A stretch of DNA of 63,842 bases, taken from Chloroflexota bacterium. GTDB lineage: Bacteria > Chloroflexota > Anaerolineae > UBA2200 > JACIWT01. Within the stretch, counting starts at the first letter, position 1. The number at the start of each line of letters is the position of its first letter. The translations under genes and the position numbers were made by a program. Shown here piece by piece: positions 5,039 to 20,019 of the stretch. The notes beneath the pieces are model-generated. The model had not been told where the DNA came from, ran no database searches, and saw nothing but the letters and a program-made list of their open reading frames with translations. The stretch is taken from NCBI GenBank assembly GCA_014360825.1, contig JACIWT010000013.1, forward strand, positions 1-63,842. The letters are read 5' to 3'.

Positions 5039-7009
5039 TCAACTGCCTGGCTCTGGTGTGGGCGAGGGTTGCGGCAGGCCGAAATAATAGCGCAGTATCT
5101 GAGCCGCGATCGGTACGGCAACTGTCGCGCCTGATCCCCCGCCGGCAACAAAGACCACGATAGCAACTTCCGGCTTCTCGTAAGGCGCAAAGCCCGTAAA
5201 CCAGGCGTGAGTGGGGAGGTTGCCCTTTTCGTCGCGTGGGCCGGGGTACTCTGCTGAGCCCGTCTTGCCCGCCACACTCACCTCCGGAAGATTGATACGG
5301 TGCGCGGTGCCACTGGTAACCGCAAGTCGCATCCCTTTGCGCACGATGTCTAACGTTTTGGGCGAAAGCGGCAATTGGTGGATCACTTTTGGGGTGAATG
5401 GAACCACTGTTTTGCCTGCTGCATCCACTATTTGGTACACAAGTTGTGGTTGGAGAAGCGTCCCGCCGTTAGCCACTGCGGCGGTCATGTTGAGCACTTG
5501 GAGTGGTGTAGCCAGGATATACCCCTGGCCAATGGCGGCGTTGTAGGTATCGCCTGTTACCCAGCCCTCGCCGTAGTTAAGCCGCTTCCATCTCTCGTCA
5601 GGCACCAGACCCGCGTTTTCACCAGGCAATGCAATACCAGTTTTCTCTCCGTATCCAAACTGCTTGGCATAATAGCCCAATTTGGTTATTCCTAAGCCAG
5701 CGAAATCCCCGTAGCCGCCAGTGACTTGGTAGAAAAAGATGTCGCATGACTGTGCAATAGCCTCATAGATGTTCAACCAGCCATGTCCCCATTCATTCCA
5801 GCACTTAAAGGGTGTTGCTTTCTCAGGGTCATCTGGGAAGTACTTGTTGGGTAGGTATAGCATGCCCTTGCATTCGAATTTGGTACTCTCATTGATGAGC
5901 CCTTCTTGCAACACTCCGCAGGCCGAGACGATCTTGAATGTCGAACCGGGCGGGTAAAGGCTGCTGATGGCGTGATTAATCAGTGGGTGTTCCGGATCAT
6001 TGCTTAACCGCTCGTAGTCTTCTGACGAAATGCCTTGGGCGAACAGATTGTTGTCATAGCCAGGCAGGGAAACCATGGCCAATATTTCGCCCGTTTGTGG
6101 GTTCATCACGATCACAACACCGGACTTGGAGTTGACTTGGTGCATTGCCTCACGGAGGGTTCGCTCAACGTACTGTTGTAGATCCAGGTCAATGGTGAGA
6201 ATAAGGTTATTGCCTGGCGTGGGTGGGTCAATGGCCAGCACATTGACCTCCCGTTCGAAGGCATCTACCTCGATATGCTTTTGTCCTTTGATCCCGCGTA
6301 ACTGGCGCTCGTAAGTCAATTCCAGCCCAGTCAGTCCCACCTGATCAGTCCATTCGTAGCCGGTGTTTTGATCGCGGAGATAATACTCAGCGTTTTCCGC
6401 AGGGATGCCGCCCGTGAAGCCTAAGATATGCGCCATCAAAGAACCGGTGGTGTATTCGCGTCGAGGCTCTACAGTGACAACTACGCCGGGCAGATCGAGC
6501 CGCTCTTCTTCCAAGATAAAGGCCGCCTCCCGTTCTACGTTAGAGGCTATCACCACCGGAGCATAAGGACTACTCGTCTGCTGATCCAGGATATCCAGAA
6601 TACCTGGTCGGGTCTGGTCAAAAAAAGGACCGCCTAGTCCGGCCACCTTGGGGCTGGTGTCGGTGGCCAGGCTACGACGCACTGGCATGCGTAGCACCTC
6701 TGAGAGACGAGCGACAACTTGTGCGCGTTGGTACTCGTCTTTTGGCAGCCGGGCTGGGATTACGGAGACGGTAAAACTACCTACGTTGCGCGCCAGGAGC
6801 CGGCCCCTGCGGTCATAGAACACACCGCGCGGTGCCTCTATGGATATCAGACGATAGCGGTTTTGCACGGCGTGCTCTTGGTAAACCGCTGCATCGATAA
6901 TTTGCAGCTGCCATAACCGCAGACTGAGCACGACGAAAGCGAGCAGAACGACAATCTGCATAACCAACAATCTCAGTCTCGCTTGCGCAGCGGCGGCGTT
7001 CTCATCCAC
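5039..7009 (-). CDS. mrdA: Penicillin-binding protein 2 (elongasome transpeptidase)
   Basis: A 656-residue class B penicillin-binding protein that cross-links peptidoglycan during side-wall growth with RodA. One N-terminal membrane anchor (residues about 12-33) precedes the dimerisation/pedestal domain with EAPRGVFYDRRGRLLARN. In the transpeptidase domain the active-site motifs are PPGSTFK (SxxK), SCD (SxN-type) and AGKTGSAE (KTG). A GTG start at 7009 is used; its ribosome site (GGTGA) is weak. It lies between mreD and minC in the operon. Confidence 0.95.
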   Translation of the reverse strand: MDENAAAAQARLRLLVMQIVVLLAFVVLSLRLWQLQIIDAAVYQEHAVQNRYRLISIEAPRGVFYDRRGRLLARNVGSFTVSVIPARLPKDEYQRAQVVARLSEVLRMPVRRSLATDTSPKVAGLGGPFFDQTRPGILDILDQQTSSPYAPVVIASNVEREAAFILEEERLDLPGVVVTVEPRREYTTGSLMAHILGFTGGIPAENAEYYLRDQNTGYEWTDQVGLTGLELTYERQLRGIKGQKHIEVDAFEREVNVLAIDPPTPGNNLILTIDLDLQQYVERTLREAMHQVNSKSGVVIVMNPQTGEILAMVSLPGYDNNLFAQGISSEDYERLSNDPEHPLINHAISSLYPPGSTFKIVSACGVLQEGLINESTKFECKGMLYLPNKYFPDDPEKATPFKCWNEWGHGWLNIYEAIAQSCDIFFYQVTGGYGDFAGLGITKLGYYAKQFGYGEKTGIALPGENAGLVPDERWKRLNYGEGWVTGDTYNAAIGQGYILATPLQVLNMTAAVANGGTLLQPQLVYQIVDAAGKTVVPFTPKVIHQLPLSPKTLDIVRKGMRLAVTSGTAHRINLPEVSVAGKTGSAEYPGPRDEKGNLPTHAWFTGFAPYEKPEVAIVVFVAGGGSGATVAVPIAAQILRYYFGLPQPSPTPEPGS

Positions 7010-7079
7010 GATTGCTTCACCATAATGTAACGTACATAAAATATTTTACATCAGAAATTCAAAAACGAAAAAGCGTTTC

Positions 7080-7580
7080 CTATAGTTCCCTCCCGCTATC
7101 TTCTGGGCGTGAACACGCCCAACGTATTATCCAATAAACCGGGATCATGAAAAGGGTATTCAGCACCGCGGAGGGTAGTATTACTTGCCCGATACTGCTG
7201 CCCCAGACAGTGGGATGACCAAGCGCTTGCAAGAATGCCAGAATGACGATATCGTAAACAAAAGTGGATGTGGTGGCTGCGACGATGGGTAAAAAAATCC
7301 CCATTCCGAAAAAGAAACTCTGCATTGAGCCAACGAGGAGACTCGTAGCCAGCAAAGACACGGTAAATGCACCGAAGGGTGCGCTGGATAGGAGATCCAA
7401 AACAAGCCCGCCAATCAGTGCCCACCCTAGACCTTCGCGGTAGCCCCGCGAGAGCGCCCACGAAACCACGACAATCAGCATTAGATCTGGATGGACCCCC
7501 CAAATAGCGAAACGGGGCATCAGAGAAGTCTGCATGATGCCCACGCTAAAGAGAATGGCGAGGGAGACGTAGAGGTTAAT
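7080..7580 (-). CDS. mreD: Rod shape-determining protein MreD, probable ATT/ATC start
   Basis: A small integral membrane protein that links MreB filaments to the wall-synthesis complex. The body shows about five hydrophobic segments and the family feature TSLMPRFAIWGVHPDL. A start at the first usual codon (GTG 7544) would cut the first membrane helix in half. The upstream in-frame sequence INLYVSLAILFSVGIMQTSL restores it, yet no ATG, GTG or TTG occurs before the in-frame stop at 7587-7589. The candidate start codons are ATT at 7580 or ATC at 7583, both placed 6-10 bases after a GGAG. The exact start is inference. Confidence 0.85.
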   Translation of the reverse strand: MNLYVSLAILFSVGIMQTSLMPRFAIWGVHPDLMLIVVVSWALSRGYREGLGWALIGGLVLDLLSSAPFGAFTVSLLATSLLVGSMQSFFFGMGIFLPIVAATTSTFVYDIVILAFLQALGHPTVWGSSIGQVILPSAVLNTLFMIPVYWIIRWACSRPEDSGREL

Positions 7581-7586
7581 GATGAC

Positions 7587-8405
7587 TCACTCCGTTGGCA
7601 GAAAATTCAGGATCACCATGACCATTTCCAAGCGGCTGAAATCGACGGCAGAACGTATTTCTGCCTCCTGAAACATCTCATTGTCGCGTTGATGCACCGC
7701 GATAACTTGTCCGATGACCAGGCGCTTCGGAAACTTGCCTCCTAACCCGGAGGTCAAGACAATATCACCCACGTTTACCGCGTCGCCTTGCTGAATGTAA
7801 CGCATCAGCAAGACTGCCGAAGATTGCCCTTCCACAACGCCTGTAGCCCGCGAACTCTGGATGAGTGCACTTACAGAACTAGACGGGTCGGTGAGCAACA
7901 TCACCTGCGCCGAGTTAGCCGTGGTGTGCGTCACACGCCCCACCAATCCCGCTGCAGTGATGACTGGCATTCCTGGCGCTACACCATCTCGGCTCCCACG
8001 GTCGATGATCAGATAGCGCAAGATGTTGCTAGGGTCACGTCCGATGACTTCTGCGGAGAGCAAGGTGAAAGTTGGATGCGCTTGCTTGAAGTTCAGTTGT
8101 TCGCGCAATGTGGCGTTCTCGATAGCGGCTTCTTGCAGACGAACATTTTCGATCATGAGCAGATCTACCTGTTCTTGCAATTCCTTGACCCTGGTCCGTA
8201 GTGTCCCAATATCGCGCATTGTGGCCCAGAGTTCTCCCACGCTGTCACTTAAGCGGGTCAGGCTGTACTGAAATGGGGCTACAAAGACAGAAACCACATC
8301 CTCTACTGGGCCGAGTCGTCCGAATTGAGACAGGACCATCAGGGCGGCTAAAGTGACCAGAATGAGGAGGCTGGCTGTCTGCCTACTTCGCATAAGTTTT
8401 CGCAC
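7587..8405 (-). CDS. mreC: Rod shape-determining protein MreC
   Basis: A 272-residue bitopic membrane protein that scaffolds the elongasome outside the membrane. One transmembrane helix (residues about 10-28) is followed by a coiled coil (LRTRVKELQEQVDLLMIENV and onward) and the two beta domains, including VIGRDPSNILRYLIIDRGS and VGRVTHTTANSAQVMLLTD. The GTG at 8405 is chosen because AAGGAG stands 4 bases upstream; the ATG at 8393 lacks a site at a good distance. mreD follows within a few bases. Confidence 0.93.
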   Translation of the reverse strand: MRKLMRSRQTASLLILVTLAALMVLSQFGRLGPVEDVVSVFVAPFQYSLTRLSDSVGELWATMRDIGTLRTRVKELQEQVDLLMIENVRLQEAAIENATLREQLNFKQAHPTFTLLSAEVIGRDPSNILRYLIIDRGSRDGVAPGMPVITAAGLVGRVTHTTANSAQVMLLTDPSSSVSALIQSSRATGVVEGQSSAVLLMRYIQQGDAVNVGDIVLTSGLGGKFPKRLVIGQVIAVHQRDNEMFQEAEIRSAVDFSRLEMVMVILNFLPTE

Positions 8406-8450
8406 TCGACTCCTTAATTACCCAGGTCGCACGACGTGTCTCCCAATACA

Positions 8451-8521
8451 GAAAAAGGGTCGGGCGACAGTGGCGCGCTGGGATGTCCTTATAGGAATCA
8501 CGCGCTCGCCTCGCCCGGCCC
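8451..8521 (-). terminator. Hairpin plus T-run between mreB and mreC (attenuator-like)
   Basis: On the transcribed minus strand GGGCCGGGCGA (8511-8521) pairs with TCGCCCGACCC (8457-8467) with one mismatch. A 43-base GC-rich loop contains further GCGCG pairing. CTTTTTC follows directly (8451-8456). This resembles a partial terminator that would lower expression of mreC and later genes relative to mreB. The long loop makes efficiency uncertain. Confidence 0.4.
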
Positions 8522-8548
8522 TCTCGGGTTTGATACTTTGGCGTCTCT

Positions 8549-9610
8549 CTATCTGACCCGGCGAGGGCGTTGTGCCTCCGCCAGCACGTGTCCCAGCGTG
8601 TCCAGGCTTTCCAGCACCTGACCAGCCCCACGCACTACACAAGTCACTGGGTCATCCGCCACATACACGCGCATCTTGGTCTCTTCTGAGAGCCGTTGCG
8701 CCATTCCTGGCAATTGAGCCACACCGCCGGTGAGGGCTACGCCTCGCTCAATCAGGTCGGCCACGAGTTCCGGCGGCGTCTCGTCAATGGCGTTTTTGAT
8801 GGTTTCGACGATCAGATCGAGTGGCCCGCTAATCGCCTCCCGGATTTCGACACTGGAGGCCTCAACGGTTTCTGGCAAGCCGGTGATCAGGTTACGGCCA
8901 TAAAGGGTCAGGGTTTTCTCTTCAGGTAGAGGATAGGCCGAACCAATGGCGATCTTGGTGCGCTCGGCCATGCGCTCACCAATGAGCAGGTTGTATTTTT
9001 GTCGCGCATACTGGATGATTGCCTCGTCCATCTCATCACCAGCCACGCGTAGAGAACGGCTGGTGACGACGCCTCCCGAGGAGAGAACAGCCATTTCTGT
9101 GGTACCCCCGCCGATGTCCACCACCATACTGCCTACAGAGTCGTTAATAGGCAGCCCCGCTCCAATAGCTGCGGCGATGGGTTCCTCGATCAGATAGCAC
9201 TCCCGCGCCCCAGCACTCAAAACCGCATCGTGGACCGCCCGCTTTTCCACTTCTGTCGCGCCACTAGGGATGCCAATTACCACCCGGGGCCGAGGAATGG
9301 GCATCCGGGTCATCTCATGAGCCTTGTTGATGAAGTAATGAAGCATACGTTCCGTTACGTCGAAATCTGAGATGACCCCATCACGTAGCGGGCGGATGGC
9401 CACGATGTTACCTGGAGTGCGCCCCACCATTTCCTTAGCCTCAGAGCCAATGGCCAATACTCGTCGGGAACGCTTCTCGATGGCCACCACTGAGGGCTCA
9501 TGGATGACGATGCCTGCGCCTTTCACCAGCACCAACACCGTCGCTGTCCCCAGGTCTATGCTCATGTCGCGGGAGAAAAGACCAAACAGGCTATTAAGTG
9601 GGCTAAACAA
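8549..9610 (-). CDS. mreB: Rod shape-determining actin homologue MreB
   Basis: Bacterial actin that organises side-wall synthesis. The phosphate-1 motif DLGTATVLV is near residues 19-27. The phosphate-2 region VVDIGGGTTEMAVLS and the adenosine motif ALTGGVAQLPGM are intact, and 353 residues is normal. The start is TTG at 9610: GGAG lies 7 bases upstream, and the resulting N-terminus ends in FGLFSRDMSIDLG, which matches the usual MreB beginning better than the internal ATG at 9565. It begins 20 bases after rplY. Confidence 0.96.
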   Translation of the reverse strand: MFSPLNSLFGLFSRDMSIDLGTATVLVLVKGAGIVIHEPSVVAIEKRSRRVLAIGSEAKEMVGRTPGNIVAIRPLRDGVISDFDVTERMLHYFINKAHEMTRMPIPRPRVVIGIPSGATEVEKRAVHDAVLSAGARECYLIEEPIAAAIGAGLPINDSVGSMVVDIGGGTTEMAVLSSGGVVTSRSLRVAGDEMDEAIIQYARQKYNLLIGERMAERTKIAIGSAYPLPEEKTLTLYGRNLITGLPETVEASSVEIREAISGPLDLIVETIKNAIDETPPELVADLIERGVALTGGVAQLPGMAQRLSEETKMRVYVADDPVTCVVRGAGQVLESLDTLGHVLAEAQRPRRVR

Positions 9611-11200: not shown

Positions 11201-12751
11201 GTGGAAAGTCACCGCTTTCGGAAGGCACTGTCTTTTACCTTTTTGGTTTTGCTCTTGTTATCCTGTGCTCACAGGGCTACACCACAGGCCCAGGAGGTTA
11301 TACTTCACGTAGATGGCCAGGACTTCGTTGTGCAGGCCGCTGGCCCCACTGTACGCCAAGTGTTGGAGCAAGCAGGAGTGACACTGGGTAGTCTGGACCG
11401 TGTGACCCCAGACCTCTGGGCAGCAGTGGAACCGGATATGCGCATCGAAATCATCCGGGTGCGTGAAGAACGCCAGACACGCGTCCTGGCTTACCCTCGC
11501 CAGGTAGTTAAGGATGAGGGAGTTGCGGTGGGTGAGCAGCGCCTCTTGCAATTGGGAGCCAATGGCACGGAAGAATTGCTCTATCAGATCAGTTATGACG
11601 GGACTGTGGTGTTAGGCAGCGAGTTGATAGCCTCGCGAGTTATCACTCCTCCTCGGCCGGAGATCCTGATGGTGGGTGTCGCCCCACCTACCGTTACAGT
11701 TTCATTCAGTGGCACACTTGCTTACATTGCCAACGGTAACGCGTGGGTAATGCGTGGCTCCAGTGCCAGCCGGACACCACTGACCTTCTCTGGCGACTTA
11801 GATGGGCGTGTCTTCGCTCTCTCGCCTGACGGCAACTACCTGCTCTATTCCCGACGGCTTCCACAGGGCCATCACAGTGGTGCCTTCAATGAACTTTTCG
11901 TGATAGACACTCAGTTTACGGTGCAGGGAGAGCAGTCGCTTGGCTTGCGTAACATTCTGTATGCCAGTTGGTCACCTGACGGCGAACGGATAGCCTACTC
12001 AACAGCCGAGCCGGCTGACGGGGCGCCGGGTTGGATAGCGCATAACGACCTGCAAGTCATGCGGCCCGATGGCTCGATGAACCACGTTATCTTGCCGCCC
12101 TCTTCCCAAGGATTATACAGTTGGTGGGGTACGCGCTTCTTTTGGTCACCTGAGGGCTCGCAATTTGCCTATGCTAATGGCAATGAGGTGGGTTTGATAG
12201 ATGCGAAATGGGGAACAAGGGTAATACTGACCCGTTTTCCGCCTTATCACACTTATAGCGAGTGGGTGTGGACACCCACACTGGCCTGGTCCCCTGATGG
12301 GCGTTACCTTTTGGCCGTGGTCCACGGCGGTGAGGGAAGCACAGTGCCTGAGGAGAGCCCTGACTTCGATCTCTGGCTGTTTGACATAGAAGGCGGAGGA
12401 CGTTATCTTCTAGCGAGAGGGGTGGGGATGTGGTGTGTGCCCGCCTGGTCGCCGATACCGGGCGGACGAGGGCATCGGTCGATCGCGTACACCGCGGCTG
12501 TCCACACCGAGAGTTCGGACAGCAGTCCTTATGCACTTTATTTGGTAGGCCGGGATGGCACCGGTGCGGGGCGCGTATTCCCCCGCCAGAATGAACCTGG
12601 GACAGTTGGGCAAGGGCTGGCTTGGGGGCCTGATGGTCGTACATTGGCCTTCCTCTGGAATGGTGACATAGTCTTGTGGGATATGCACGCTGAACCGCAA
12701 ATTCTAACGGCCTCTGGTGCTTGTACTGCATTGGTCTGGGGAGGACCATGA
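11201..12751 (+). CDS. Lipoprotein with DUF348-like and TolB-type beta-propeller domains
   Basis: A 516-residue exported protein. A hydrophobic signal ends in the lipobox LLSC with Cys at residue 22. Residues about 30-110 (VILHVDGQDFVVQAAGPTVR, VLEQAGVTLGSLDRV) resemble the ubiquitin-like DUF348 domain of YabE/Rpf proteins. From about 165 on, repeats with WSPDGERIAYS, LSPDGNYLLYS, WSPDGRYLLAV and WGPDGRTLAFL form a PD40/TolB-like propeller. The GTG start has AGGAG upstream; an overlapping ATG at 11199 is out of frame. The stop overlaps the next gene as ATGA, so the two are coupled. A role in sensing or binding surface glycan is inference. Confidence 0.85.
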   Translation: MESHRFRKALSFTFLVLLLLSCAHRATPQAQEVILHVDGQDFVVQAAGPTVRQVLEQAGVTLGSLDRVTPDLWAAVEPDMRIEIIRVREERQTRVLAYPRQVVKDEGVAVGEQRLLQLGANGTEELLYQISYDGTVVLGSELIASRVITPPRPEILMVGVAPPTVTVSFSGTLAYIANGNAWVMRGSSASRTPLTFSGDLDGRVFALSPDGNYLLYSRRLPQGHHSGAFNELFVIDTQFTVQGEQSLGLRNILYASWSPDGERIAYSTAEPADGAPGWIAHNDLQVMRPDGSMNHVILPPSSQGLYSWWGTRFFWSPEGSQFAYANGNEVGLIDAKWGTRVILTRFPPYHTYSEWVWTPTLAWSPDGRYLLAVVHGGEGSTVPEESPDFDLWLFDIEGGGRYLLARGVGMWCVPAWSPIPGGRGHRSIAYTAAVHTESSDSSPYALYLVGRDGTGAGRVFPRQNEPGTVGQGLAWGPDGRTLAFLWNGDIVLWDMHAEPQILTASGACTALVWGGP

Positions 12752-15660
12752 CGGAGATAAGCGTGGGTATCAACAGAACCCCCAGAGTGAAAGGGGTGTT
12801 GCGAGCACTGGCGGGTCTAATAGGGCTGCTCAGTGTGTTGCTTCTGGCCTGGGCTGGGGCCAACGTATCCAGCATTGTTTCTACACATCGAATGGCGGTG
12901 CGAGGCATTACATTCGGTTTGCCCGAGCGGCTTCCTGCCACTGTCGCACCGCTCTGGGGCGTGAATACCGCCCTGGAGCAATACGACGATGCCGAGATAG
13001 AACGCGCCTTGGATATGATCCAGGAAGGTGGTTTTGTATGGGTGCGCCAATCTTTTCCCTGGGCGAGCATTGAGCCAGAACCCGGCGCTTTCGAGTGGGG
13101 GCCATGGGATCGCATTGTGGAGGCCGTCACCAGCCGGGGCCTGCACCTCGTAGCAGTGCTGCATACCGCACCGCCTTGGGCTCGGGCGGTCATAGATCAA
13201 TCCAATCCATTCGCTCCTCCACAGTATATGGCGACATACGCGCTTTTTGTGCGAGCCTTTACGCAGCGCTATGGTGACCGGATAGACCATTATGAGATTT
13301 GGGATGAGCCCAACATCTATCCGCATTGGGGAGAGCGTCCTATTGATCCCTCTGCTTATGCGCGTCTTTTACATTTGGCAGCAGCGGAAGTGCGAGCCCA
13401 TGATCCGAAAGCAGTAGTGTTGGCCGCAGGGTTAGCGCCGACCTCGGAATCCGGCGGTCGTAATATGAGCGACATACTTTTCCTCCGCGGTTTGTACGCG
13501 GCTGGTGCAGGACCTGATTTCGATATCCTGGCTGCAAAACCCTACGGTTTCTGGTCTGGTCCAGACGACCGGCGTGTGGATGCCAATGTGCTCAATTTCT
13601 CACGGGTCATACTCTTGCGCGAGGAGATGGAGCGTCATGGCGATGTAGATAAACCCCTCTGGGCAGTAGAGTTCGGCTGGAACGCGCTGCCGCCTGATTG
13701 GACAGGCCAACCCTCACTGTGGGGTACGGATATTGCAGAGAAACAGGTAGAGCGGGTAACGAATGCCATCCGCCGCGCCCGCGAGGAATGGCCGTGGATG
13801 CATGCTATGTGCTGGGCTGAATTTCAGCCTGTTGCCCCGGACGACGACCCGGTTTGGGGATTCGCTCTGGTGCGACGCGACTTCTCACCCACACCTTTCT
13901 ATGTAGCCCTACGCGACTTGGCGCTGGCTCCGCCGGTGGCCTACCCCGGCCGCTACCCTGCCGATGCTTGGAGAGACGGGTTGGTGAGCCGGTCCGGCGA
14001 TGCACTGCACCTGCGCTTCTGGGGGACAGACTTGACCGTAGAAACCGATGGGCACCTCTCTGTAACCGTGGATGGCGAACCCACAACATCTAACCTATCC
14101 CTGGGCGAGCACGAGGCCGTGCTGAGGGGGGAGGGAACACTGCGCGGGTTCACCATTTGGAGGCGAGCACAGTTCAGCGGTTTTTACAAGCAACTCTCTA
14201 TTTACATCGGGCTGCTGGTTTTGGCGCTCACGGGAATAGGCGGAACAATCTGGGCTCTGCGACTGGATGGCTGGGCGATGTGGCTAACCAGTCAATACCG
14301 CGATTTATCCGATACAATGGCCCTTGCGCTCATGACCTTGCTGCTTGTGGGCTTTTACCTAGTTCCGTACGTCTGGCTGAGTCTGATTTCGCTGGTGCTC
14401 CTGGCTTGGATGGCGTATCTGCGCCTTGAACTGGCCTTGCGCCTCCTGGTGTTCAGTGTGCCCTTTTTCCTGTATCCCAAGGCTATCCTCGGCAAGGCCT
14501 TTTCGCTGGTCGAGATATTGACCTTGCTTTCTTTTGCAGTATTGGCTTTGCGCAATCTCGAGAGGTTTAGAACTCTTGCCCTTTCCAAGGCTGGGCCAGT
14601 GAAGTGGCGGCTTTCCGCGTTGGATTGGGCCGTGTTTACATTCGCAGTCATCGGGGCGCTCTCGCTCTTGACGGCCGTATTTCGAGGAGTTGCTATTCGG
14701 GAATTCCGCGTGGTGGTATTAGAGCCCGTTCTGCTCTACATTCTGTTGCGCTTCGGTCGCTGGCGCGAACGCGATCTGCTGTTGTTGGGCGATGCACTGA
14801 TGTGGTCAGGTCTGGCTGTCTCATTCATAGGTCTCTATCAGTATTTTCTAGCCGGTGATGTGATTGTAGCAGAGGGTGTGCGGCGCATGCACAGCGTCTA
14901 TGCCTCTCCCAATAATCTAAGCCTGTTTCTGGGGCGTGTCTTTCCAGTGGCGTTTGCCATCGCCTGGCTGGGTTACTCACGAGGACGACGGTGGCTCGGC
15001 GCTGCTACTGCATTGATTATGTTGCCCTGTCTGTTCCTCACCTACTCGCGTGGGGCGTGGCTATTAGGCGTGCCTTTGGCCCTGTTGACCATTGGCCTGA
15101 TCCGTGGCCGGAAATCGCTTATCGCCATGACAGGGGCAGTGGTGGCTGCCCTCTTAAGCCTTTTGCCATTGGCGGGGACGCAGCGCATCGCGTCGCTGTT
15201 CAATTTCTCGGCCGGCACATCCTTCCTGCGCCTTAAGCTCTGGCAGGCTGCCATTGCCATGATCCGTGACTATCCCCTCACAGGCATCGGGCTGGACAAT
15301 TTTCTGTACCTCTATCCTCGTTATATACTATGGGAAGCCAGAGATGAGCCCAACCTCTCACATCCGCATAATATTCTGCTGGACTTCTGGACCCGGTTAG
15401 GCATCTTGGGTGTGTTGGCAGGCATCTGGCTGCTCGTCGCCTTTTTTGGGGCAGCAACCCGTCTCTACCGACGCTTGGCGGAAGGAGACATGCGAGCATT
15501 GGTGTTGGGGCTGATGGCGAGCATGGTGGACTTCTTAGCCCATGGATTGGTGGATAATTCCTACTTCCTGGTGGATTTGGCTTTTGTATTCATGTTCACC
15601 CTAGGTATCGTACGGGCTGGGGAATTCATAGTGACAGAGAAGGAGGCTATCCCTTGGTAG
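12748..15660 (+). CDS. Glycoside hydrolase (clan GH-A) fused to O-antigen ligase/polymerase-type membrane domain
   Basis: A 970-residue protein. One anchor helix (about residues 19-40) precedes an extracytoplasmic (beta/alpha)8-type domain. This carries IWDEPNIYPHWGER, whose Glu fits the general acid/base, and LWAVEFGWN, whose Glu fits the nucleophile of GH39/GH5-like enzymes. A short beta domain follows (about 410-465). The second half has some twelve hydrophobic segments with LTYSRGAWLLG and LSHPHNILLDFWTRLGILG, signatures of the Wzy/WaaL family that joins polysaccharide units. The ATG overlaps the previous stop (ATGA). Both halves look intact, so one polypeptide could cut and join the same glycan; this is inference. 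Confidence 0.85.
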   Translation: MTEISVGINRTPRVKGVLRALAGLIGLLSVLLLAWAGANVSSIVSTHRMAVRGITFGLPERLPATVAPLWGVNTALEQYDDAEIERALDMIQEGGFVWVRQSFPWASIEPEPGAFEWGPWDRIVEAVTSRGLHLVAVLHTAPPWARAVIDQSNPFAPPQYMATYALFVRAFTQRYGDRIDHYEIWDEPNIYPHWGERPIDPSAYARLLHLAAAEVRAHDPKAVVLAAGLAPTSESGGRNMSDILFLRGLYAAGAGPDFDILAAKPYGFWSGPDDRRVDANVLNFSRVILLREEMERHGDVDKPLWAVEFGWNALPPDWTGQPSLWGTDIAEKQVERVTNAIRRAREEWPWMHAMCWAEFQPVAPDDDPVWGFALVRRDFSPTPFYVALRDLALAPPVAYPGRYPADAWRDGLVSRSGDALHLRFWGTDLTVETDGHLSVTVDGEPTTSNLSLGEHEAVLRGEGTLRGFTIWRRAQFSGFYKQLSIYIGLLVLALTGIGGTIWALRLDGWAMWLTSQYRDLSDTMALALMTLLLVGFYLVPYVWLSLISLVLLAWMAYLRLELALRLLVFSVPFFLYPKAILGKAFSLVEILTLLSFAVLALRNLERFRTLALSKAGPVKWRLSALDWAVFTFAVIGALSLLTAVFRGVAIREFRVVVLEPVLLYILLRFGRWRERDLLLLGDALMWSGLAVSFIGLYQYFLAGDVIVAEGVRRMHSVYASPNNLSLFLGRVFPVAFAIAWLGYSRGRRWLGAATALIMLPCLFLTYSRGAWLLGVPLALLTIGLIRGRKSLIAMTGAVVAALLSLLPLAGTQRIASLFNFSAGTSFLRLKLWQAAIAMIRDYPLTGIGLDNFLYLYPRYILWEARDEPNLSHPHNILLDFWTRLGILGVLAGIWLLVAFFGAATRLYRRLAEGDMRALVLGLMASMVDFLAHGLVDNSYFLVDLAFVFMFTLGIVRAGEFIVTEKEAIPW

Positions 15661-16385
15661 ATCCGTCCAAGATCAGGGTTGACGTAGTAATTCCCGTTTA
15701 CAATGAGGAGAAGGACCTACCGACCAGCATAGAAACTCTACATAAGTTTATGACGGACAACGTGTCCTATGACTGGCGTATTGTGATTGCGGACAATGCC
15801 TCTGTGGACCGCACGTTGGAAATCGCTAAGGCATTATCTGAACGTTATCCCCGCGTGAAATATATCCATCTGGATCAGAAGGGTCGTGGGCGGGCACTGC
15901 GCAAGTCCTGGCTGGAAAGCGATGCCGATATTGTCAGCTACATGGACGTAGATCTCTCCACCAACCTCGATGCCTTTCCGCCCCTCATCGCCGCACTGAG
16001 CACAGGTGTCTATGATGTGGCGATCGGCTCGCGCTTGTTGCCTGCCTCGCGGGTGACACGCCAACCCAAGAGAGAGATCATCTCCCGGATTTACAATTTG
16101 CTCATCAAGTTGATGTTCCGGAATCGCTTTTCCGATGCCCAATGTGGTTTCAAGGCCCTCACACGCCGCGCCGTACAGACCCTGGTACCCTTGGTCAAAG
16201 ATCAAGCCTGGTTCTTCGATAGCGAATTGCTCCTTTTGGCCGAGCGCAAGGGGTTCCGCATTTTCGAGGTGCCGGTGGAATGGGTGGAGGACCCAGACAC
16301 CCGGGTGAAAATCCTTAGCACGGCCTGGGAGGATATCAAGGGGTTGGTGCGAGTGAGATTCAGCAAAGAGTATAATCGAGGATAG
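15654..16385 (+). CDS. Glycosyltransferase family 2, polyprenyl-phosphate-sugar synthase-like
   Basis: A 243-residue GT-A enzyme resembling dolichyl-phosphate mannose/glucose synthases, which load a sugar on a lipid carrier. Motifs are [12 protein letters not shown] at the nucleotide site, [15 protein letters not shown] (the metal-binding DxD region), GSRLLPAS, and [12 protein letters not shown] with FFDSELL. No C-terminal membrane helices are present. The start is TTG at 15654 with GGAGG about 7 bases upstream; it overlaps the previous gene by 7 bases. It probably supplies lipid-linked sugar to the preceding membrane protein. Confidence 0.9.
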
Positions 16386-16396
16386 GAAGGTGGGTC

Positions 16397-17332
16397 ATGC
16401 GCGTACTCATCACTGGCGGGGCTGGTTTCCTCGGCTCTCATCTGTGCGATCGTTTTTTGGCCGAGGGGCATGAAGTCATCGCCATGGACAACCTCATCAC
16501 CGGTTCTACGCGCAATATTGCGCATCTGGCTGGCCACGAGCGGTTTCAGTTCATCAAGCATGATGTGACCAACTATATTTTCATTGACGGGCCGGTGGAT
16601 GCCATCTTGCATTTCGCTTCACCCGCCAGTCCGATTGACTACCTGGAATTGCCTATCCAGACGCTGAAAGTTGGGGCACTGGGCACGCACAAAGCCTTAG
16701 GTCTTGCGCGGGCGAAAGGGGCACGGTTCCTGCTGGCCTCGACCTCCGAGGTCTATGGCGATCCGCTAGTACATCCCCAAAGCGAGGACTATTGGGGCAA
16801 TGTGAATCCTATCGGTCCCCGTGGTGTATACGACGAAGCCAAGCGCTTTGCTGAGGCCCTGACCATGGCATACCATCGCGTGCACGGCGTTGATACCCGC
16901 ATTGCTCGCATCTTCAACACCTACGGGCCACGTATGCGCTTGGATGATGGGCGCGTGGTGCCCAATTTCATCGGCCAGGCCCTCCGTGGTGAGCCTCTTA
17001 CCGTTTATGGCGACGGCTCACAGACGCGCAGCTTCTGCTACTCTGACGATCTCATCGAGGGCATCTACCGACTACTCCTCTCCACAGAGACGGAGCCCGT
17101 GAACCTGGGCAACCCATCTGAGATGACCATTCTGGAGTTCGCACATCGGATCAACGAAGCGGTGGGCAGTAAAGCAGGTGTGGTGTTTAAACCGCTACCG
17201 GCAGACGACCCGAAGAGGCGCCAACCTGACATTACGAGGGCGCGCCGTATTCTGGGGTGGGAGCCCCGGATATCCCTGGATGAGGGATTACGACACACCA
17301 TCGCCTATTTCCGCACCCAATTGATGGTCTAA
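16397..17332 (+). CDS. UDP-glucuronate decarboxylase (UDP-xylose synthase) family
   Basis: An extended short-chain dehydrogenase of 311 residues. The NAD-binding GGAGFLGSH is at residues 7-15, the catalytic YDEAK (YxxxK) is near the middle, and [21 protein letters not shown] and [13 protein letters not shown] are present. This set is typical of UDP-xylose synthases, which decarboxylate UDP-glucuronate to UDP-xylose; a related 4,6-dehydratase or epimerase is less likely. It ends the glycan operon and suggests that the exported glycan contains xylose (inference). Confidence 0.88.
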
Positions 17333-17407: not shown

Positions 17408-17448
17408 ACTATTTGAGATGTTCTGATCCAGGGATGGGAATCGCGCAG

Positions 17449-20019
17449 ATGAAAGTGATCCTGACCCACGAGCGTGCCGATGGAGATGCGATTGCCTCCA
17501 TGTTGGCCGCATCAAAACTATATCCTGATGCGATCCCTGTTCTGCCGCGCTTGGTAAACCGCAATATTCAGGAGTTCTTGACCCTCTACGGCGAGCAGTT
17601 GCCCTTTGTGGCAGCGAAAGACCGGCCCCATGGTCGCATTACCGAAGTGATTTTGGTAGACACACAGACCATTGTGCCAATTAAAGGCATGGGCCCGAAA
17701 ACACGTATCACTATCATTGATCACCACCCGCCAAGCGAAGAACTAGATAAGCGCGCTACCTACATAGGTAGGACAGTTGGCGCAACAGCAACCATCCTTG
17801 TCGAGCGGTTGCGTGATGCTCGCATCTCCCTGTCTCCGGTCGAGGCTACACTGCTACTGATAGGCATCCACGAGGATACGGGTTCGCTTCTTTACTCTAC
17901 CACTACTCCCGCTGACTTGCGCGCCGCAGCCTGGCTAATGGAGCAGGGGGCGAACTTAAATGTGGCAAATGCGACCTTGCACCATCCCCTGGATAGTCGC
18001 TATCGTGCTGTTTACACGGAGCTAGCCAAAAACGCGGAACTCTTTGAGTTCCACGGCCACAGCGTTTTGATTGCCACTGCTCGGCCCAACGTGTACTTAG
18101 ATGAGCTCTCCAGCCTGGCGCACAAGTTGGGAGATCTTTTCGAGCCCGATGCAACTTTCCTGATCATTCAACTGGACAGCAGCATCCAACTCATCGCCCG
18201 CAGTTCCACCGATGACATTGATGTGGGTGAATTAGCCAAAGCCTTTGGAGGTGGTGGGCACTCCCGGGCCTCAGCGGCCCTTATCAGCGGCCATAGCATC
18301 GGTGAGATCCGTGCCCGATTGCTCCAATACCTACAGAGTGCCGTTAAGCCGATGATAACCGTTCGTGACATCATGTCTTACGGCGTGCACACCCTACCAG
18401 CAGACCTTTCCTTGGCCGAGGCTCAGTCTCAGGCCCGCCGTTACGGTCATGAGGGATTCCCAGTTGTGGACGAAGGACAAGTGGTGGGTGTGGTCACCAG
18501 CCACGAGATTGATCGTGCCATGCACCATCGGCTGGGCCATGCCCGGGTGAGCGCCTATATGCACAAGGGCAACATTTATGTCAGTCCCTCAGATTCGGTA
18601 GCGCGAGTGCAACAAGTGATGATGGAATACGGCGTCGGTCAGGTACCGGTGGTGGAAAATGGTCAGATTATTGGAGTGGTCACTCGGACAGATCTGATCA
18701 AGGCGTGGGGCGGGGTGCCCGAGCCTGCGAGGCGAGCCGAGATACAGGACCGGCTCAAAGCCGCCCTGCCCGCTCCCCTGATCGAACTACTGCTGCAGGC
18801 ACGGGATGTTGCCAATGAGATGGGCTATTCGCTTTACGTCGTGGGCGGGTTCGTGCGTGATTTACTTTTGGGGGTCCCCAATCTGGACCTGGACCTGGTG
18901 GTGGAGGGAGATGCCATTGCCTTGGCCCGCGGTCTGGCACAGCGCGTCGGTGGGCGAGTCCGGGGACACAGCCGTTTTGGCACCGCTAAGATCATCCTGG
19001 GCGAGAAGCGGGCCAAGGGTTTACCGCCCTCGCTGGACTTCGTCACCGCACGCACGGAGTTCTACGAACATCCAAGTGCTTTGCCTGAAGTAGAACGCAG
19101 TTCCATCAAGCAGGACCTTTATCGCCGTGACTTCACCATCAATACGATGGCTATTTGCCTCGACCGTGATCGCTATGGCGAGTTGCTGGATTTCTATGGC
19201 GGCGAGCGAGACCTACGCAACAAACTGATCCGCGTCTTGCATAACCTGAGTTTTGTTGAAGATCCCACCCGGATGCTACGGGCAGTGCGTCTAGAACAGC
19301 GGCTGGGCTTCCGCATTGAATCGCGCACCGCTGAACTAATCACCAACGCTCTTGACCTGCTTGATCGTGTGACGGGTGACCGGCTGCGCCACGAACTCAA
19401 CCTTATATTCGCTGAGCGTGAACCGGAGAACAGCCTCCGTCGTCTCGCTGAATTGGGCATCCTCTCACGACTGCACCCAGCCCTGCGTTGCGATACATGG
19501 TTGATGCGAAAGTTCCGAGACCTACGCGAGCGAGCCACCATGACCGGGGCCCCGGGTATGTACATGGCACTGATGTGCTATCGCCTTTCGTCAGAGGAGT
19601 TAAAGAATTTCGCTGCCCGGTTGCATATTTCTAGAGAGGACCTACGCCTCTTGGAGGAAGTCAACGCCTTGAAGAGCCAAGAGGAAAAACTGGCTGCACG
19701 CTCCATGTCCAATAGCACCGTCTATCGTATCCTGGAGCCGTATCGAGACGAATCCGTTTTCGTTTTCGGTGTGGCGACCGACCAGCGCATGGTGCGGAAG
19801 CGGGTGGATCTATATCTCTCGCGACTGCGCTACGTCCAGGCCGAGGTGAGTGGTGATGATTTGCGACGTCGAAAGGTGCCGCCAGGGCCGCTCTATCGGC
19901 AAATATTGGATGCAGTGCTCGACGCACGACTGGACGGACGGGTGCGAACACGAGAAGAAGAGGAACGCCTGGTGGATGCGTTGCTCACCAGTGCGGGGTG
20001 GAAGCCTATGCCTATCTGA
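17449..20019 (+). CDS. DHH-CBS-CBS-tRNA nucleotidyltransferase fusion (CCA- or A-adding enzyme)
   Basis: An 856-residue multidomain protein. Residues 1-300 are a DHH phosphoesterase with HERADGDAIAS, the DHH at 91-93 and the DHHA1 motif GGGGHSRAS. Two CBS domains follow (about 305-425). The C-terminal half is a class II nucleotidyltransferase with VVGGFVRDLLLG, LDLDLVVEGD and RRDFTINTMAI, plus the RNA-binding helical domain (EDPTRMLRAVRLEQRLGF). Such fusions are known and add all or part of CCA to tRNA; which bases this one adds cannot be read from sequence. The ATG at 17449 is chosen to fit the DHH N-terminus; an ATG at 17434 is possible. Confidence 0.9.
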   Translation: MKVILTHERADGDAIASMLAASKLYPDAIPVLPRLVNRNIQEFLTLYGEQLPFVAAKDRPHGRITEVILVDTQTIVPIKGMGPKTRITIIDHHPPSEELDKRATYIGRTVGATATILVERLRDARISLSPVEATLLLIGIHEDTGSLLYSTTTPADLRAAAWLMEQGANLNVANATLHHPLDSRYRAVYTELAKNAELFEFHGHSVLIATARPNVYLDELSSLAHKLGDLFEPDATFLIIQLDSSIQLIARSSTDDIDVGELAKAFGGGGHSRASAALISGHSIGEIRARLLQYLQSAVKPMITVRDIMSYGVHTLPADLSLAEAQSQARRYGHEGFPVVDEGQVVGVVTSHEIDRAMHHRLGHARVSAYMHKGNIYVSPSDSVARVQQVMMEYGVGQVPVVENGQIIGVVTRTDLIKAWGGVPEPARRAEIQDRLKAALPAPLIELLLQARDVANEMGYSLYVVGGFVRDLLLGVPNLDLDLVVEGDAIALARGLAQRVGGRVRGHSRFGTAKIILGEKRAKGLPPSLDFVTARTEFYEHPSALPEVERSSIKQDLYRRDFTINTMAICLDRDRYGELLDFYGGERDLRNKLIRVLHNLSFVEDPTRMLRAVRLEQRLGFRIESRTAELITNALDLLDRVTGDRLRHELNLIFAEREPENSLRRLAELGILSRLHPALRCDTWLMRKFRDLRERATMTGAPGMYMALMCYRLSSEELKNFAARLHISREDLRLLEEVNALKSQEEKLAARSMSNSTVYRILEPYRDESVFVFGVATDQRMVRKRVDLYLSRLRYVQAEVSGDDLRRRKVPPGPLYRQILDAVLDARLDGRVRTREEEERLVDALLTSAGWKPMPI

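Follow-up and report, generated by a model that had tools for sequence, protein, structure and literature searches.

A single 970-codon frame in a 63,842-nucleotide stretch of Chloroflexota DNA (hereafter, the window) encodes a glycosidase-type barrel of family GH39 fused to a polytopic membrane domain of the WaaL O-antigen ligase type. Relatives of the fusion occur throughout the class Anaerolineae and are common in other classes of the phylum. The central residues of the ligase half are invariant, whereas the catalytic glutamates of the barrel vary, and this pattern supports a reading of the protein as an extracytoplasmic glycan ligase whose GH39-derived module holds glycan. We consider this reading about an even bet. 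The folds, residues, conservation pattern and gene context reported here were all established by computation.

Chloroflexota have layered envelopes but lack lipopolysaccharide genes (PMC5826079, PMC13319060). A surface-glycan ligase that is present in nearly the whole class and is often encoded beside a UDP-xylose synthase gene would provide a direct handle on the composition of those layers. Moreover, repeated loss of the catalytic dyad in a well-kept barrel, with intact free paralogs as a control, amounts to a natural experiment on the conversion of a glycosidase into the binding part of a biosynthetic enzyme, and bears on why polysaccharide synthesis machines carry hydrolases (PslG, BcsZ, AlgL).

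Architecture and occurrence of the fusion

An open reading frame check of the window confirmed one uninterrupted frame from an ATG at 12748 to 15660 on the plus strand, which also applies to all features of the protein given below. The start overlaps the stop codon of the upstream gene (ATGA) and is preceded by GGGGAGG. An AlphaFold2 model of the 970-residue protein (P0001), built from 52 aligned sequences, has a mean pLDDT of 92.1 and a pTM of 0.79, a value that leaves the relative orientation of the domains unfixed. The model places an N-terminal helix (residues 12-51; 12781-12900) ahead of a barrel (about residues 70-393), a beta-sandwich (residues 401-471; 13948-14160) that links the barrel to the membrane domain and differs in length between family members, and a set of polytopic helices (residues 477-967; 14176-15648). 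The N-terminal helix is a putative membrane anchor, which would place the barrel outside. Pfam recognises Wzy_C at residues 754-890 (E 7e-24) and makes a weak clan GH-A match at residues 77-143.

The barrel, which we delimit to residues 67-397 (12946-13938) from phmmer, the model, Foldseek and VIA-align, most closely resembles PslG of Pseudomonas aeruginosa, a GH39 retaining endo-beta-glucosidase (PDB 4zn2, 5bx9, 9g17). PslG was the best solved relative by sequence (phmmer, residues 69-401, E 8e-15), ranked first when the full model was searched with Foldseek (TM 0.65-0.67 by target), and led the VIA-align rows, all of which were barrel matches, with a Z of 32.9; the runners-up were GH39 enzymes, including xylosidases, with Z of about 27-30. 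Hence, the domain is a clan GH-A (beta/alpha)8 barrel for which GH39 is the closest family by both sequence and structure. The catalytic residues of PslG are E165 and E276 (PMC6813494, PMC11912335), and both have aligned counterparts: the acid/base is matched by E187 (codon 13306-13308) in the WDEPN motif, where D186-E187 spans 13303-13308, and the nucleophile by E308 of VEFGW (13669-13671). However, the Asn that precedes the acid/base in GH39, Asn164 in PslG, which contacts the -1 sugar (PMC11912335), is replaced by D186. This change is insufficient on its own to abolish activity.

A preliminary description, made from the sequence, had proposed this fusion of a clan GH-A-like domain bearing both glutamates to a Wzy/WaaL-like polytopic domain with a PHN motif, and had named structure prediction and profile searching as the tests that could overturn it. 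Frame, Pfam, AlphaFold and Foldseek agree on the fusion, and both tests upheld the GH-A barrel and the WaaL fold. The survey of Chloroflexota that it suggested showed the fusion to be widespread. A match was found in 59 of 60 related genomes, and both halves lie in one frame at 39 of 40 Anaerolineae neighbourhoods, the exception (locus L079) having the two halves in separate frames. Among named genomes, the best 80 of 556 candidate stretches are all single-frame fusions, and these 80 carry the label Chloroflexota or that of a group within the phylum (Anaerolineae, and relatives including Thermoflexus and Ardenticatena). Given the single frame at 39 of 40 loci and in all of the best 80 of 556, chance and misassembly are excluded as the source of the fusion. 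Annotated plasmids searched for the same layout yielded single-domain matches only.

The description knew of no characterised protein built in this way, and our literature search likewise found no characterised GH39 barrel on a GT121-like ligase; nor did it find an O-antigen ligase with a glycoside hydrolase domain reported for Chloroflexota or Chloroflexus. The sole source to mention both GH39 and O-antigen ligase does so once each and appears unrelated. The nearest architectural precedent is WadA of Brucella, a bifunctional O-antigen ligase comprising GT25 and GT121 domains (PMC9938171, PMC10920833). In WadA, as in the fusion, a further domain of sugar-enzyme type precedes a WaaL-type ligase domain. 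However, the extra domain of WadA is a cytoplasmic GT25 glycosyltransferase, for which Pfam and Foldseek gave no match in the fusion protein, whereas the fusion has a GH39 barrel that is predicted to lie outside and often carries non-catalytic residues.

The membrane domain and its acceptor

Used as a profile, the membrane half has a single sequence match in the PDB, WaaL (GT121; 7tpg; E 1e-8), and Foldseek superimposed it on the same structure (TM 0.66 by target). By Foldseek and the helix pattern of the model, it has the polytopic GT-C fold and the long loop that characterise GT121; this loop (residues 805-875; 15160-15372) would lie outside by homology to WaaL. The two arginines and one histidine of the GT121 active site are also present. 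Profile alignment to 7tpg places R768 (15049-15051), R828 (15229-15231) and H874 of the HPHN motif (15367-15369) on Arg191, Arg265 and His313, respectively. R828 is invariant in 130 of 130 sequences and H874 is found in all sequences covering that position; the R768 column holds R or K in most members, with exceptions. In WaaL, the two arginines bind diphosphate and the histidine is the proposed acceptor activator (PMC10920833).

Pfam Wzy_C spans polymerases as well as ligases, and the membrane domain might instead be a Wzy-type polymerase that polymerises repeat units while the barrel binds the growing chain as a length gauge. Consistent with this, other parts of the same genome contain genes for Wzx-type flippases and Wzz-domain proteins, and a second Wzy_C protein neighbours the fusion at 39 of 145 loci. 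However, related inverting polymerase families of clan GT-C1 have Asp or Glu where O-antigen ligases have His (PMC10920833), and the fusion has H874 at this acceptor-activating position. In addition, WaaL is the membrane half's only sequence match in the PDB, and the second Wzy_C protein itself reads HAHN. The histidine favours a ligase over a polymerase, and we regard the polymerase reading as rather unlikely. The preliminary description had suggested that the protein could control the length of a surface glycan; given a ligase-like membrane half, such control is not specially indicated.

A separate candidate identity for the membrane half, IctB (TIGR00947), was its best NCBIfam match and was rejected, since the score of 77.8 bits lies below the curated cut-off of 366.4 bits. 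The same genome encodes another fused ligase-type protein, an 1137-residue Wzy_C protein with a long TPR tail, within a polysaccharide cluster (locus L192, contig C7, 5445-8858).

The acceptor of the fusion would have to differ from that of WaaL and WadA. The genome that carries the window is 98% complete and has no match to LpxB, LpxC or Omp85, and the phylum as a whole is without LPS genes (PMC5826079). Since LpxB, LpxC and Omp85 are absent, we rejected lipid A-core, the GT121 acceptor, as the acceptor of the fusion. Thus, the protein shares with WaaL the fold, the long loop and the equivalents of Arg265 and His313, but not the lipid A-core acceptor, and adds an N-terminal anchor, a barrel and a beta-sandwich; WadA, which acts on lipid A-core, differs in the same respect from a fusion whose lineage has no lipid A genes.

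Catalytic residues of the barrel

We compared the catalytic positions in 106 non-redundant Anaerolineae fusions, 39 of which had been chosen without a sequence pattern; these 39 are given separately because the search pattern biases the acid/base counts of the named-genome scan set. Both glutamates are retained in 22 of the 106 fusions, and in 11 of the 39 in the pattern-free subset. No intact dyad is seen in the remaining 84, of which one is truncated at the site and 83 are missing one or both glutamates. At the acid/base position, E is found in 78 of the 106, Q in 14 and N in 13. Just 36 have E as the nucleophile, and the other residues seen there are N, H, A, S, Q, D, G, T and Y. All Anaerolineae fusions covering the site have D or H before the acid/base. 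The window protein reads D-E-E at the three positions; it belongs to a supported clade with five further members, all of which have D-Q-E. One clade has both catalytic positions replaced (N/H). As a control, we examined the standalone GH39 paralogs that these genomes encode, and 21 of 21 keep WNEPN and the second Glu. The canonical N-E-E set is found in 21 of 24 fusions from other Chloroflexota classes.

The variability of the nucleophile is marked. Its column ranks 230th of 333 barrel positions by entropy in Anaerolineae, where two thirds of the barrel varies less, versus 37th of 333 in the other classes. On a FastTree tree, dyad status requires at least 14 changes and the nucleophile state 12; this was a quick tree with the trait columns left out, and the counts treat losses and gains alike. 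By contrast with the glutamates, P188, N189, W194, G310 and W350 are invariant in the barrel, and W305 and W311 nearly so; W305, G310, W311 and W350 are neighbours of the nucleophile. We conclude that in Anaerolineae the barrel is probably, for the most part, no longer a hydrolase, the glutamates having been lost repeatedly while the fold and the cleft aromatics were kept. The copy in the window has both glutamates and may still be hydrolytic, as may the fusions of other classes. Variable catalytic residues could alternatively reflect several specificities instead of a binding role.

Loss of the dyad, taken alone, would also fit a barrel that is a decaying passenger, or a fusion that is an assembly or reading artefact, for neither of which there is direct support. 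However, the mean pairwise identity of the barrel is 44%, versus 40% for the ligase half, and the cleft residues are invariant. Moreover, in the predicted structure of a Thermoflexus member that reads H/N/H (L115), the barrel has pLDDT mostly above 90 and PslG is again the first match. We conclude from the identity and from this confident fold that the fused barrel is not decaying. Together with the intact single frames at 39 of 40 Anaerolineae loci and in the best 80 of 556 from named genomes, these observations refute the artefact and decay readings for the family, and we assign them a negligible probability.

A further alternative is that the altered barrels are transglycosidases that move chains and do not hydrolyse them, which would give each protein two joining activities. 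Many members have lost one glutamate with the cleft preserved, and engineered glycosynthases show the same residue pattern. However, natural transglycosidases normally retain both catalytic residues, and the N/H clade, with both positions lost, would be left without catalytic machinery. We regard this alternative as very improbable.

The main rival for the window copy and for the other classes is that the fused barrel has endo-glycosidase activity and trims or releases the chain that the membrane domain ligates, a PslG-like arrangement on one polypeptide. PslG, a membrane-associated protein, is part of the complex that synthesises Psl; full Psl production requires its hydrolytic activity, and the E165Q/E276Q form fails to restore production (PMC6813494), so that activity in a fused barrel would be reasonable too. 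The window copy has both glutamates, fusions of other classes mostly read N-E-E, and the free GH39 proteins encoded beside unfused ligases of the same clade have both glutamates in six of six cases. However, unlike PslG, which stands alone and has Asn ahead of its acid/base, the barrels of Anaerolineae are joined to the ligase and have Asp or His at that position in every sequence covering it; 84 of 106 show no intact dyad, and the nearest relatives of the window protein have Q as the acid/base. We consider this rival unlikely overall. The preliminary description had proposed cutting and joining in one chain; the two domains and their fusion stand, but cutting does not hold as a conserved function in Anaerolineae, given 22 intact dyads in 106.

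Our preferred reading therefore remains a ligase with a glycan-holding module. Under this reading, the barrel, tethered by the N-terminal helix, would sit outside beside the ligase active site, where it would grip either the donor chain or the acceptor and present it to the ligase. The donor would be a polyprenyl-diphosphate-linked glycan, probably with xylose, and the WaaL-type half would join it to an acceptor other than lipid A. In the window copy, weak trimming or transglycosylation may remain. A more specific version for Anaerolineae, which we offer tentatively and regard as somewhat doubtful, is that a retaining glycosidase became a dead, pseudo-glycosidase holding module and that the fusion attaches the main surface glycan of the multilayered Chloroflexota envelope to a non-lipid-A acceptor.

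Free GH39 partners and gene neighbourhood

Other Chloroflexota classes, in which the fusion is also common, include loci where a GH39 gene is directly followed by a separate ligase gene of the same clade (L194-L197, L206 and L229); a canonical fusion is carried by L223. Many fusions of these classes have a further free GH39 gene directly upstream. Tandem and adjacent free GH39 proteins group together in a single well-supported clade apart from the fused barrels, save for one truncated fusion. The unfused neighbours and the separate clades suggest that free GH39 is an old partner of the ligase, and that the fused barrel derives from a different GH39 lineage. In one clade of other classes (L212, L217 and L219), it is the free GH39, next to or near a canonical fusion, whose site is lost (WHEPN, LSAYGW), opposite to what is seen in Anaerolineae.

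In the window, the fusion gene lies between an upstream gene (11201-12751) for a protein with a lipoprotein-like start (LLLLSC) and, by Pfam, DUF348, G5 and beta-propeller domains, and a downstream gene for a GT2 glycosyltransferase (15654-16385; Pfam), the start of which overlaps the end of the fusion. A UDP-glucuronate decarboxylase (UDP-xylose synthase) gene follows at 16397-17332; all three are on the plus strand. This last assignment is by sequence match: the encoded SDR protein matches UDP-glucuronate decarboxylase with E 1e-119, versus 1e-40 for the next kind. Across 145 loci, a same-strand SDR neighbour occurs in 57 and a G5/propeller protein lies upstream of the fusion in about 40-42; in addition to the second Wzy_C, the other most frequent same-strand neighbours are GT4 (35), free GH39 (19) and GtrA (18). 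The frequency of the UDP-xylose synthase neighbour suggests that the glycan contains xylose, although the enzyme could serve other glycan pathways of the cell.

Several further observations concern the surroundings of the fusion and GH39 genes elsewhere. Divergently upstream, on the minus strand (5039-9610), lie genes for a PBP2-type transpeptidase and for MreD-, MreC- and MreB-like proteins; relatives of MreB, MreC and PBP2 are found near the fusion at about 10-14 loci, a loose link to cell-wall elongation. The window also encodes, at 17413-20019, an 868-residue protein that combines a poly(A) polymerase/CCA-adding head with DHH/DHHA1 domains and a pair of CBS domains. Elsewhere in the same genome, two adjacent GH39-like genes lie on contig C15 (L187, 8185-12555), the longer of which encodes a 970-residue protein with WNEQN in place of WNEPN and a weak GH18 match as well. 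On contig C1 (L185, 7298-11405), a gene for a standalone, membrane-anchored GH39 is followed by an overlapping PMT_2 glycosyltransferase gene. This pair is found in 7 of 20 relatives, within limited flanking sequence, indicating that the pairing of GH39 with a membrane glycosyltransferase recurs.
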